Source of the DNA: Dioscorea cayenensis subsp. rotundata
Taxonomy: Eukaryota; Streptophyta; Magnoliopsida; Dioscoreales; Dioscoreaceae
Direction of reading: 5' to 3'
DNA length: 64,000 nt
Assembly: GCF_009730915.1 (NCBI RefSeq)
Contig: NC_052486.1
Location: 22,101,589 to 22,165,588, forward strand
Numbering within the stretch: the first letter of the stretch is position 1; each line of letters starts with the position of its first letter. Shown one piece after another: positions 42,485 through 51,445 of this stretch. A program made the translations under genes and the position numbers. Under the pieces are notes generated by a model. The model ran no database searches. It saw nothing but the letters and a program-made list of their open reading frames with translations, and was not told where the DNA came from.

Positions 42485-42646
42485 ATGTTTTTCAGTTGAT
42501 AGTTCTTTGCCTGCCTCTTGTATGGAAATTTCTGAGTTAATTTATGTTTCATAAAGTGCAGCGAATAACCGGGGAAGTACAAATGCGGTATAATAGATTG
42601 TAGGGGCTGGACTATTCACAAGTGTGTAATCCCATTAATTACAACA

Positions 42647-43774
42647 ATGCCACTCCCACCAAGAGGATTTAGAATTAATGCCAGAAATTTATTTCTGACT
42701 TATCCTAAGTGTTTATTAGCAAAAGAGTACGCACTAGAAAAAGCTCGAGAGTCACGTTACTCCCTAGCAACAAAAAAGTTCATCCGGTAGCAAGAGAGTT
42801 ATCATGAAGACGGAAGTCCACATTTACATGTATTAATACAATTAGAAGGAAGGGCACAGGTAACAAATCAAAGAATATTTGATATTGTTTCTCCCACTTC
42901 TTCTGCTGTTTTTCATCGTAATATACAGTCTGCAAAGTCTAGTAAAGATGTAAAGGCATACATAAAGAAAGGTGGTGATTATGTGGATTGGGGAACATTC
43001 CATGAAGATTCCAGAAAATCAAGAAATGGAAGACAATCGTTAGTCGATGTTTATGATGATGCTTTACAATCAAGTTCGGCGTAAGAGGCATTATGATAAT
43101 AAGGAATGATCCCGTAATATTTTCACTTCAAGATCACAATTTGAGGGGCAACTTATGAAAGATTATTTTATAAGCCTCTTGATCCTTACATTTTTTTCTC
43201 GGGCATATTCATCATTTAATATAACCAAGAGTTATGAATGAATGGTTCGAGACATAATTTTCGTGTTAATGATGCCGCAGTACCTGTGATGGAAATATAA
43301 TTATACACAAGGAAGAGTGTATCAGGCACATTAGTCTGATTGTTGAAGGCCCAAGTCAAATTGGTAAAACCGCTGCGCTCGTCACCGGGTAAACACAATT
43401 ATATCTCGTGGGTCATCCTGGATTTCAATCTAGCAACATATCGACAAGATGTTCTCGTGATAATGTAATTGATGATGTATCTCCAACAGATCTACGCTCA
43501 AGCACTCGAAAGAACTCATTGGTTGCCAAAGAGATCGGCGATCAATTGTAAATACGGTAAACCAATCCGTATAAAAGGTGGGATACCATCTATTATTTTA
43601 TGCAACCCGGGTAATGATTCAAGCTACAAAGAATACCTGGACAAAAATGAAAACATGGGCCTCCGTCATTGGACCTTGAAGAATGCCAAGTTTGAGTTCA
43701 TATACGACCCTCTGTTCAACTCGGCCCAAGCCCAAGAGAGCAACTCTAGTCATTCATCTGGTTGTTCTGTCTAA
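42647..43774 (+). pseudogene. Geminivirus Rep, unit 1 (multiply broken)
   Basis: Rep is the rolling-circle initiator that nicks the origin and acts as a helicase. The start ATG, the motif I region FLTYPKC and the helicase C-terminus are recognisable. Breaks: a one-base loss near 42783-42789 gives an early TAG; another change near 43079 gives TAA; several substitutions and indels fall between 43100 and 43470, including in the Walker A region. The last 102 codons (43469-43774) are again open. It cannot encode a full Rep. Unit 2 is better preserved. Confidence 0.9.
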
Positions 43775-43776
43775 GA

Positions 43777-44170
43777 ATGGACAGTAGAACTGGAGAATTA
43801 CTCACAGAGGAACAGGCAAATACGGGTGTATTCTACTGGCAACTACGTAATCCTCCGATTTCGTGGTCAAAAGATCACCGGACGTACTCATGCAACAACA
43901 ATTGGGATAGGATCACAATGGAGATTAGATTCAACTACAATCTTCAGAGAGCTTCACGTATAAATAAATGTTGGTTATACTTTCGAGATATGGACAACAT
44001 TACGTCCACGTACAGAGAATTTCCTACATGTATTTAGATGTAATGTAATGAATTTCCTTAATAGTTTCGGAGTTATATCTATTAATTATGTAATCAGAGC
44101 TGTTACACATTTTGTGGGCCGGTTTGAAAGACATGTTATTTCTGTAGAAAACTCGGCCCAAGTTCAAATT
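43777..44170 (+). pseudogene. Geminivirus REn (replication enhancer), unit 1
   Basis: Overlaps the end of Rep as in begomoviruses (ATG two bases after the Rep stop codon). Begins MDSRTGELLT; EIRFNYNL and GVISINYVIRAV are typical of REn, which binds Rep and raises viral DNA replication. The frame shifts near 44000-44037, so the two halves lie in different frames. A TrAP frame, expected to overlap here, was not recognised. Confidence 0.88.
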
Positions 44171-44400
44171 TCTACTTGTATTAATAAAAAGCATTGCTTG
44201 TTTTGGTTAATATTGTCCATATGTGAATTATTTATCATATTTAAATGGATACATATATTATAACATAAAACATAGTAATTATTTTTAGGGAATTAGATGC
44301 ACTCGCAAATAAATTAAAAATACGTAGAATACAACCATACTAATCATCATTATCCGGGTTTTTTGCTGGGATGGATTAGAGGTACCCAAACCGACTCGGA

Positions 44401-44670
44401 TCATCTTCTTTTCATATTAATGGCATCACCTTCAATAAACAGATTTGCATATAATAGATCTTCATTATCCCTGTCTGCACTCGAGTCTACTCGTAACATA
44501 CGGAAAACAGATTCTTCATGTTTCTGGAGTGCGTTGACAAAGTTAATGAGTGGTTGGGGATGCTTCCTGATTGCTTGGGCTATACATATGTCGTGGATGC
44601 ATTTAATGATCTCTGCAGGACCGTATTCCAGAAACAAATAATATACGGCCATGATATCTTGTTTCTCCAT
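44401..44670 (-). CDS. Unrecognised virion-sense ORF, unit 1
   Basis: 89 codons starting MEKQDIMAVYYLFLEYGP. It lies where the coat-protein gene of a DNA-A should be, convergent to REn. The same ORF (106 codons) is in unit 2; here a small deletion changes the C-terminus after GDAIN. It does not resemble coat protein or V2. Mostly helical and slightly acidic by composition. Function unknown. Confidence 0.6.
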   Translation of the reverse strand: MEKQDIMAVYYLFLEYGPAEIIKCIHDICIAQAIRKHPQPLINFVNALQKHEESVFRMLRVDSSADRDNEDLLYANLFIEGDAINMKRR

Positions 44671-44775
44671 CTTTCTATAACAAGCTATAAGTGGAAGGTC
44701 ATATATATAGTGTTAACATGTAATGCATTAACTTGCCTATACTACTTAAATTAATACCAATTTACTGTCTACCAG

Positions 44776-49002: not shown

Positions 49003-49353
49003 TAGATATGTCAGTTTCAAATTAAAGTTACCGCCAAGAATCTCTCAGAAATATTCAAAATTAAATTTTAAAAAAATACCTCGATTTCTTCTCCGAGAAA
49101 ATTGCCGAGAATTCAAACAAGTGGGTCCCACCAATAAATATAATGATAATATACTCTGTTATATGTACAATTAGGAGACAATTACTGTATAACGGGTGGA
49201 CGTACCGAGTAGGTATATAATTACCTGGACACTACATGTCTTTTGCTGTTTACATTTTGACCAGAAGGATGTGTCCGTTAGAAGAACATCAAGTTAATGC
49301 ATTACATGTTAACACTATATATATGACCTTCCACTTATAGTTTGTTATAGAAG

Positions 49354-49674
49354 ATGGAGAAACAAGATATCATGGCCGTATATTATTTGTTTCTGGAATA
49401 CGGTCCTGCAGAGATCATTAAATGCATCCACGGCATATGTATAGCCCAAGCAATCAGGAAGCATCCCCAACCACTCATTAACTTTGTCAACGCACTCCAG
49501 AAACATGAAGAATCTGTTTTCCGTATGTTACGAGTAGCCTCGAGTGCAGACAGGGATGATGAAGATCTATCATATGCAAATCTGTTTATTGAAGGTGATG
49601 CCATTAATAAAAAAATGAAAGAAGATGATCCAGTCGGTTTGGGTACCTCTAATCCATCGGGCAAAACCGGATAA
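49354..49674 (+). CDS. Unrecognised 106-codon virion-sense ORF, unit 2
   Basis: Longer and apparently undamaged version of 44401-44670. It starts MEKQDIMAVYYLF and ends GTSNPSGKTG. It sits between the intergenic region and the end of REn, the coat-protein position. A TATA-like ACACTATATATATGACC lies about 45 bases upstream. No family recognised. Confidence 0.65.
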   Translation: MEKQDIMAVYYLFLEYGPAEIIKCIHGICIAQAIRKHPQPLINFVNALQKHEESVFRMLRVASSADRDDEDLSYANLFIEGDAINKKMKEDDPVGLGTSNPSGKTG

Positions 49675-49837
49675 TGATGATTAGTATGGTTGTATTCTAC
49701 GTATTTTAATTTATTTGCAGACTGCATCTAATTCCCTAAAAATAATTACTATGTTTTATGTTATAATATATGTATCCATTTAAATATGATAAATAATTCA
49801 CAGATGGACAATATTAACCAAACAAGCAATGCTTTTA

Positions 49838-50242
49838 TTAATACAAGTAGAGCTGAACTTGGGCCGAGTTTTCTACAGAAATAACATGTCTTTCAAACCG
49901 GCCCACAAAATGTGTAACAGCTCTGATTACATAATTAATAGATATAACTCCGAAACTATTAAGGAAATTCATTACATTACATCTAAATACATGTAGGAAA
50001 TTCTCTGTACGTGGACGTAATGTTGTCCATATACGAAAGTATAACCAACATTTATTTATACGTAGAGCTCTACGAAGATTATAGTTGAATCTAATCTCCA
50101 TTGTGATCCTGTCCCAATTGTTGTTGCATGGTCTGTCCAGGTGATCTTTGACCCTGAAATACAGAGGATTACGTAGTTACCAGTAGAATACACCCGTATT
50201 TGCCTGTTCCTCTGTGAGTAATTCTCCAGTTCTACTGTCCAT
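49838..50242 (-). pseudogene. Geminivirus REn, unit 2
   Basis: Starts MDSRTGEL at 50242 just below the Rep stop, as in unit 1. The C-terminal 87 codons (50101-49838) are open and include FRIWTTLRPRTENF and GVISINYVIRAV, a better match to REn than unit 1. The frame is broken near 50110-50160. Confidence 0.88.
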
Positions 50243-50244
50243 TC

Positions 50245-51364
50245 TTAGACAGAACCAGATGAATGACTAGAGTTGCTCTCTTGGGCTTGGGCCGAGTTGA
50301 ACAGAGGGTCGTATATGAACTCAAACTTGGCATTCTTCAAGGTCCAATGACGGAGGCCCATGTTTTCATTTTTGTCCAGGTATTCTTTGTAGCTTGAATC
50401 ATTACCCGGGTTGCATAAAATAATAGATGGTATCCCCTACCTTTTATACTGGATTGGTTTCACAGTATTTACAATTAGTCCCGCTCTTTGGCAACCAATG
50501 AGTTCTTTCCAGTGCTTGAGGCGTAGATACTTTGGAGATACATCATCAATTACATTATCATGAACATCTTGTCGATATGTCTATCGGATTGAAATCCAGA
50601 TAACCACAGATATAATTGTGTTTACCCAGCGAACGGACACAAGCAGTTTTACCAATTCGACTTGGGCCTTCAACAATCAGACTAATGTGCCTGATACACT
50701 CTTCCTTGTGTATAATTATATTTCCATCTGGCTGCGCAGCATCATTAACTTGAAAATTATGCTCAAGCCATTCATTCACAACACTGGTTATATTAAATGA
50801 TGAATATGCCCAGAAAGAAATGTAAGGATCAAGAGGCTTGTAAAATAATCTTTCATAATTTGCCCTCAAATTGTGATACTGAAGTGAAAATATTCTGGGA
50901 TCATTCCTTCTTATTATCTATAATGCCTCTTCTGCCGAACTTGATTGTAAAGCATCATCATAAACATCAGCTAACGATTGTCTTCCATTTCTTGATTTTC
51001 TGGAATCTTCATGGAATGTTCCCCAATCCACATAATCACCACCTTTCTCTATGTATGCCTTTACACCTTTACTAGACTTTGCAGATTGTATATTACGATG
51101 AAAAACAGCAGAAGAAGTGGGAGAAACAATATCAAATATTCTTTGATTTGTTACCTGTGCCCTTCCTTCTAATTGTATTAATACATGTAAATGTAGACTT
51201 CCGTCTTCATGTAACTCTCTTGCTACCCGGATGAACTTTTTGTTGCTAGGGAGAGTAACAGCTCTCAGTTTTTCTAGTGCGAACTCTTTTGCTAATGAAC
51301 ACTTAGGATAAGTCAGAAATAAATTCCTGGCATTAATTCTAAATCTTCTTGGTGGGAGTGGCAT
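50245..51364 (-). pseudogene. Geminivirus Rep, unit 2 (few lesions)
   Basis: The N-terminal 148 codons (51364-50918) are open and hold all nuclease motifs: FLTYPKC, HLHVLIQ and the tyrosine motif VKAYIEK. A single in-frame TAG at 50918-50920 interrupts the gene. Downstream the same frame reopens to 50558 with the Walker A site GPSRIGKT. A frameshift near 50560-50575 then separates the last helicase part, which ends at 50245. The nuclease/DNA-binding half could still be made as a separate protein. It is the best-preserved Rep in the window. Confidence 0.92.
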
Positions 51365-51445
51365 TGTCGTAATTAATGGGATTACACACTTGTGAATAGT
51401 CCGGCCCCTACAATCTATTATACCGCATTTGTACTTCCCCGATCA

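Follow-up and report, generated by a model that had tools for sequence, protein, structure and literature searches.

In a 64,000-nt stretch of the genome of the yam Dioscorea cayenensis subsp. rotundata (contig NC_052486.1; hereafter the window), positions 42591-51420 are taken up by an endogenous bipartite begomovirus-like cluster whose right side is joined to plant DNA. A DNA-A-like unit stands on the right, an inverted duplicate of this unit on the left and 1.1 units of DNA-B between them, with the Pfam families Rep, REn, BL1 and coat/BR1 at the places where a reading made from the sequence only had located an endogenous bipartite geminivirus in a plant chromosome.

Genes and architecture of the cluster

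The full DNA-B unit (46440-48945, 2506 nt) terminates on its right precisely at the Rep nick site. Its overhang amounts to ~245 nt and is split by a host repeat into an outer piece (44736-44764, matching 48696-48724 at 93%) and an inner piece that reaches the nick site (46226-46439); the stretch 46219-46439 repeats 48721-48945 at a spacing of ~2505 nt, which is one DNA-B unit. The origin stem-loop (46428-46459, minus strand) contains an intact TAATATTAC at 46438-46446, and the Rep nick, from what we take to be its position inside this nonanucleotide, falls between 46439 and 46440. The nonanucleotide alone is not evidence, with 1.3 occurrences expected by chance, but the stem-loop, the genes and the repeated copies are. 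An open piece of 208 codons (46629-47255, plus strand) encodes a BC1-like movement protein (MP; PF00845 Gemini_BL1, E 1.2e-69) and spans profile positions 2-169 of 276, the frame being broken ahead of the C-terminus, and an open frame of 260 aa (47798-48580, minus strand) encodes a BV1-like nuclear shuttle protein (NSP; PF00844 Gemini_coat/BR1, E 9e-23). The MP gene follows the common region and the NSP gene precedes the next origin position, so that the two converge as in begomovirus DNA-B. The sequence-only reading had proposed this arrangement around a common region from 46698-47550 and 47798-48580, and the protein search that it suggested, run against Pfam, returned the geminiviral BL1 and coat/BR1 families. 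A relative of the MP is a D. alata protein, 82% identical over 24% of the query, which NCBI names 'Geminivirus BL1 movement protein'; scans of viral contigs with the MP and NSP queries confirmed no relative. A common region is shared by A and B over 67 nt at 88% identity in the window and over 141 nt at 90.8% between a further locus (L002) and B, though it is shorter than the ~200 nt, typically at >85% identity, that the available text of PMC2858149 gives for bipartite begomoviruses. Between B and A lies a 27-nt snapback copy of common-region sequence (48946-48972) formed by inverted repeats.

The right DNA-A-like unit (48973-51420, delimited by self-comparison and the border with a virus-free contig, C860) is nearly full length. 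Its minus strand carries the Rep catalytic domain as an open piece of 148 aa (50918-51364; PF00799 Gemini_AL1, E 7.3e-49), a central Rep piece (50558-50869; PF08283 AL1_M, E 1.2e-7) and an AC3-like REn piece (49838-50101; PF01407, E 1.7e-19). In the left arm (42591-44735, plus strand) the frames of Rep and REn are broken, and a REn (AL3) piece is recognized by Pfam at 43762-44037 (plus strand, E 2e-13). Rep and REn motifs are thus present in both units, as had been read from the sequence, but the units are inverted duplicates: 42570-44735 aligns with 51441-49290 in inverted orientation at 93.7% over 2193 columns (self-comparison). At the outer end of the left arm, 21 nt (42570-42590) are an inverted copy of the right plant flank, identical to 51441-51421 reversed, and the counterpart of 51421-51441 in C860 (1964-1984) adjoins the right flank. 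Because they share this piece of flank, the two A units do not stand for two independent viral molecules and the left arm is the duplicate of the right one; it was probably made, together with the bit of plant flank, at or after insertion. Dating by arm divergence (Kimura two-parameter distance 0.032, ~1.2-2.5 million years at plant substitution rates) was dropped, and we claim no single date because the B overhang differs by 8%.

A virus-free homologous site is available in C860, which contains both plant flanks and no viral match between them. Of the left flank (42485-42569), 42497-42571 is 98.7% identical to C860:1-75; the right flank (51421-53400) is contiguous in the assembly, with 51447-53400 being 88% identical to C860:1990-3936, and the match of 51421-51557 to C860:1964-2100 at 95.6% places the right plant/virus border at about 51420|51421. 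Joining the two plant flanks did not give a gap-free empty site, since 1.9 kb separates them in C860, and plant DNA would therefore have been lost from the virus-bearing site or gained by C860. The first ~576 nt of this 1888-nt interval are a dispersed repeat, and the remainder gave only a self-match among the best 40 of 1068 candidates. The left border lies ~100 bp from an assembly gap of 1000 N (41485-42484). Into this gap runs the second copy of a 7.1-kb direct duplication (1-7109 and 34366-41484, 94%). Among the plant genes of the window are an amino-acid kinase (20451-21536, Pfam) and, near the cluster, a GH18 chitinase-like gene whose two open pieces (33087-33560 and 34213-34671) may be exons or the result of a break, the second lying slightly below the Pfam cut-off.

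A host transposon-like repeat of ~1.45 kb (44776-46225) separates the left A arm from DNA-B; it lies inside the DNA-B overhang and has 334-nt inverted arms of 98% identity. It was considered as a further viral piece and rejected as such, with at least 126 matches in the genome (best 40 of 71 candidates scored). Internally it contains 140- and 122-nt tandem repeats, and a 68-aa open reading frame (ORF) is common to both arms. Before its arrival the order, as read from the self-comparison, was A(+), 1.1 units of B, the 27-nt snapback and A(-).

Segment ends at the Rep nick site

The DNA-B unit stops exactly at 48945|48946, a point beyond which the sequence of the intact copy goes on into the loop; the cut point is GT|AATATTA on the plus strand, corresponding to TAATATT|AC on the virion strand. 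We mapped B-segment ends by BLAST in the window and in 72 of 77 loci (five duplicate the window), a set selected through matches to Rep, MP, PF00844 and the host repeat and spanning a part of the circle; segments shorter than ~250 nt or below 76% identity, ends within 25 nt of the end of a locus and duplicate contexts were dropped. Among the 41 distinct ends, 9 of 19 on the 5' side but only 1 of 22 on the 3' side fell within 4 nt of the nick. The binomial p for the 5'-side excess is 9e-18 on a uniform circle, the true p being larger given the choice of loci and the partial coverage. Seven of the 22 3'-side ends lay within 120 nt inside the nick; of these at least L038 extends into a diverged stem, and L015 marks an edge of A/B homology, not a true end.

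The same asymmetry was observed for the stem arms of A- and B-units in the plant's own genome (584 Mb), to which all genome-wide counts refer. The 5'-side arm, sought with at most one mismatch, was found at 55 places in 53 stretches, all of which were read (reversed control, 1). An automatic call gave 32 intact and 23 ended arms; on visual inspection, four of the 23 were dropped as non-viral from their upstream sequence (L105, L106, L116 and L130) and L125 was moved from ended to intact. This left 18 of 51 viral arms that stop at the nick or within ~4 nt, while 33 continue into the loop; with perfect matches only, 11 of 29 stop. As a control, the 3' arm was taken at its perfect matches, 34 of the 86 places listed (reversed control, 16); 25 of these are the positional partners of intact 5' arms and the other nine were read (eight intact, one ended), giving 33 of 34 intact arms and a single one ending at the nick (C273). 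For 18/51 versus 1/34 the Fisher p is 3.5e-4, with related copies counted as independent. Head-to-head A|B joints in which each end is at the nick or no more than 1 nt away from it were seen on C18 (L041) and at C16:8.63M (L043). A- and B-segments therefore often end at TAATATT|AC, almost always on the 5' side, which as far as literature searches show is new. Such one-sided ends are as expected if Rep-bound rolling-circle products were integrated, with the 5' end held by Rep as the probable integrating end.

When Agrobacterium T-DNA integrates, the nicked, protein-bound 5' end is precise and the other end ragged. A comparable pattern, precise on the 5' side and ragged on the 3' side, appears here in viral ends; a bound protein may be common to both systems, whereas the protein is a different one here, the source is a replicating virus and there is no transfer machinery.

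Copies across the genome, an orphan gene and selection

The Rep piece has at least 150 matches (150 of 188 candidates scored), the NSP 133 (of 147 candidates) and the MP piece 82 (of 88 candidates), the latter at 55 loci after merging at 10 kb; 20 of these have a Rep locus at a distance of 5 kb or less, against 0.09 expected under uniform placement. Most of the loci probably go back to separate endogenizations. That DNA-B in a plant chromosome would be unusual, as the first reading held, was overstated given the 55 loci, and the available text of Sharma et al. 2020 (PMC7758297) refers to potential NSPs in D. alata and Camellia sinensis and to BC1 among transcripts of Camellia, so that DNA-B genes in yam have already been hinted at in print. 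In an array at C18:7817000-7844000, DNA-B units are followed by DNA-A units every ~2.49 kb, and a head-to-head joint falls at the nick site. At C10:7075-7079k and C13:3702-3707k, origin-bearing stem arms recur every ~820-860 nt, far below unit size, which may reflect defective-size units or satellite-like repeats, and at C9:26763391-26771476 short C-terminal NSP matches (~38-45 aa) every ~1 kb form a satellite-like array grown from viral DNA.

On the right A unit, the place where the coat protein gene (AV1) of a bipartite begomovirus would be expected is held by a virion-sense orphan gene of 106 aa (49354-49674, plus strand). No clear coat protein was found: the PF00844 profile gave 60 matches in the genome (of 73 candidates, 52 above the cut-off), all of which overlap an NSP-query match of at least 32% identity, although a coat protein too diverged for this profile would escape detection. 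Pieces of two PF00844 outliers (L048 and L056) had no match in PDB at E 1 and so gave no sign of a coat protein. For TrAP (AC2), none of three candidates in the genome matched PF01440, and the control also gave no match. The orphan ORF has 115 matches in the genome (of 134 candidates); among the best 63, 36 are convergent with Rep within 4 kb (32 of these at 1.03-1.52 kb), seven are otherwise placed near Rep and 20 are without Rep. Fifteen copies picked for being stop-free align with the window copy at 45-91% identity, with a median dN/dS (ratio of nonsynonymous to synonymous substitution rates) of 0.25 in 92 usable of 120 pairs. The window copy had no match in Pfam, and weak matches to three families, in no more than 4 of the 16 members (best E 0.043-0.066), were put down to chance; 11 relatives in a large protein set are all unnamed. 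The A unit thus carries a conserved orphan gene without a detected coat-protein gene, a combination that is new as far as literature searches show.

To characterize how the copies had diverged, we counted differences from the window by codon position, leaving out duplicate loci, by which C10:9.12M was lost and a few overlapping loci were kept; the loci share ancestry and the counts are hence non-independent. For first, second and third positions we obtained 582/290/1324 for the MP (28 loci, third-position share 60%), 855/689/1494 for the NSP (27 loci, 49%) and 115/126/210 for the orphan gene (11 loci), compared with 187/157/224 (13 loci) and 97/84/108 (5 loci) in two non-coding stretches, where the third-position share is 37-39%. 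These shares suggest that the copies diverged mostly under protein selection which, since the MP and NSP differ mainly at third positions, would include selection for movement; this, too, is new as far as literature searches show. An element confined to the chromosome would not need movement proteins.

Origin of the cluster

The whole is best explained, with good probability, by the repeated endogenization of a real bipartite begomovirus-like lineage through Rep-bound 5' ends. The cluster would be the remains of a two-component virus, of which a 1.1-unit rolling-circle product of DNA-B was ligated into the chromosome through the 5' end that Rep makes by nicking TAATATT|AC and to which it stays covalently bound. 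This DNA-B end would have been joined head-to-head to a DNA-A product; at or after insertion, an inverted copy of the A unit and 21 nt of plant flank would have been placed on the left, and the host repeat would have entered the B overhang; we infer this order of events from the present arrangement. Similar events, many times over and from a diverse virus population, would have produced the dozens of A, B and A+B loci. Several observations weigh against this explanation. Copies derived from a single rolling-circle product should be identical at first, but between the two B common regions 18 of 221 aligned sites are different, against 67 of 2127 (plus 74 gap columns) between the A arms. The ages therefore disagree, which may point to gene conversion or a mixed origin, and some of the A-arm indels may be assembly errors. 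Of the 55 MP loci, 35 have no Rep locus within 5 kb. The third-position bias is weaker in the closest copies (ratio 1.05-2.35), as would result from later duplication or decay. Owing to tandem arrays and segmental duplication, arms and loci are not fully independent of one another (the 18 ended arms amount to 16 junctions), and the attachment of Rep leaves no mark that can be read in a sequence.

The alternative with most in its favor, which we nevertheless consider unlikely, is a Rep-driven, Helitron-like spread within the genome, in which Rep would nick a copy already in the chromosome and the circle or strand made from it would insert anew, most loci thus descending from one or a few endogenizations. 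It would account for nick-site ends, many copies and ~2.49-kb tandem arrays, and the idea is in print for Rep/REn units (Filloux et al. 2015, PMC5014472), but it needs only Rep and an origin, and the third-position bias in MP and NSP points to selection for movement. Helitrons, compared with yam elements in the available text of the same paper, are alike in having a rolling-circle initiator and a hairpin, whereas the movement genes of the yam copies diverged under selection. The youngest copies may nonetheless have arisen by such spread. Less probable again is that the nick-site ends arose where host nucleases cut the hairpin of the origin, or where breaks in viral DNA were sealed by ordinary end-joining, and owe nothing to Rep-bound 5' ends. 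Hairpins are fragile and several joints have small trims or filler, but a cut hairpin should leave both arms, in conflict with the 18 of 51 5' arms and 1 of 34 3' arms that end there.

Two further doubts concern the identity of the locus itself. As PF00844 includes both coat protein and BR1, the frame at 47798-48580 might be a coat protein and the middle unit not DNA-B; this is very improbable, as 31 of the 60 PF00844 matches are convergent with a BL1 movement-protein match at 540-929 nt (eight are otherwise near an MP match and 21 have none within 1.8 kb) and the best match to a coat protein in PDB reaches only E 2.8e-7. On this architecture and this weak match we rejected a coat protein identity. 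An assembly artefact, with episomal virus or chimeric contigs misjoined to plant sequence, would fit the gap beside the left border and the unplaced contigs among the matches, but is scarcely credible for a cluster that runs contiguously into plant DNA on its right, has a counterpart with the same flanks and no virus in C860, and contains broken frames and a nested host repeat, with dozens of loci elsewhere.

Among the systems in the literature that come closest to the cluster are the endogenous geminiviral sequences (EGVs) of yam. In the available text of Filloux et al. 2015 (PMC5014472), these have Rep and REn without coat protein or TrAP, and a Helitron-like behavior is proposed for them. 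EGV1 and EGV2 resemble the window cluster in their begomovirus-like Rep/REn, a TAATATTAC stem-loop (EGV1), ~2.6-kb tandem repeats, residence in Dioscorea and the absence of a detectable coat protein gene; the window cluster likewise has Rep, REn and a chromosomal place, and no coat protein was found. Unlike here, DNA-B, a movement or shuttle gene, nick-site ends and a virion-sense orphan gene are unreported in that text. The EGV survey PMC7758297, as far as its text was available, has no DNA-B unit, joint A+B locus or analysis of ends (its main text never uses the words 'DNA-B', 'nick' or 'junction') and treats entry into the chromosome as passive non-homologous recombination. The available parts of PMC8626973 (macadamia), PMC3198968 and PMC6293997 contain nothing on DNA-B fossils or nick-site ends, and the titles and abstract openings of the open-licence papers listed by literature searches describe no chromosomal DNA-B unit or Rep-nick ends. 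With bipartite begomoviruses the cluster shares two components of ~2.5 kb, a common region, an origin stem-loop, convergent BV1/BC1-like genes on B and Rep/REn on A, but their AV1 coat protein is undetected here and the 106-aa orphan gene stands instead. The Olea europaea geminivirus (PMC8000510) is likewise a divergent bipartite geminivirid of a perennial plant, with, in the available text, a coat protein, the DNA-B MP in virion sense and no integration by Southern blot as features of its own.

The inverted duplication, the host repeat nested in the overhang, the nick-site ends, the lack of a detectable coat gene and the orphan gene all went unnoticed in the sequence-only reading. The cluster is more informative than that reading had assumed, owing to the pattern of its ends and to an A unit in which no coat gene was detected. 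Bipartite begomoviruses are able to spread systemically without a coat protein. We put forward, as a tentative possibility, that a bipartite lineage without coat protein existed in this plant lineage, that it spread in the plant by means of MP and NSP, with the orphan gene replacing the coat protein, and that its transmission was for the most part within the plant and by repeated Rep-guided insertion into germline chromosomes, a life cycle between virus and transposon. An A unit with a selected orphan gene and no detectable coat gene hints at an undescribed geminivirus life style, and the DNA-B fossils are a record of bipartite genomes and their movement genes. The nick-site ends suggest how geminiviruses get into plant genomes, and, because they are one-sided, the question of chromosome entry can be tested directly wherever a plant genome contains fossils of this kind.

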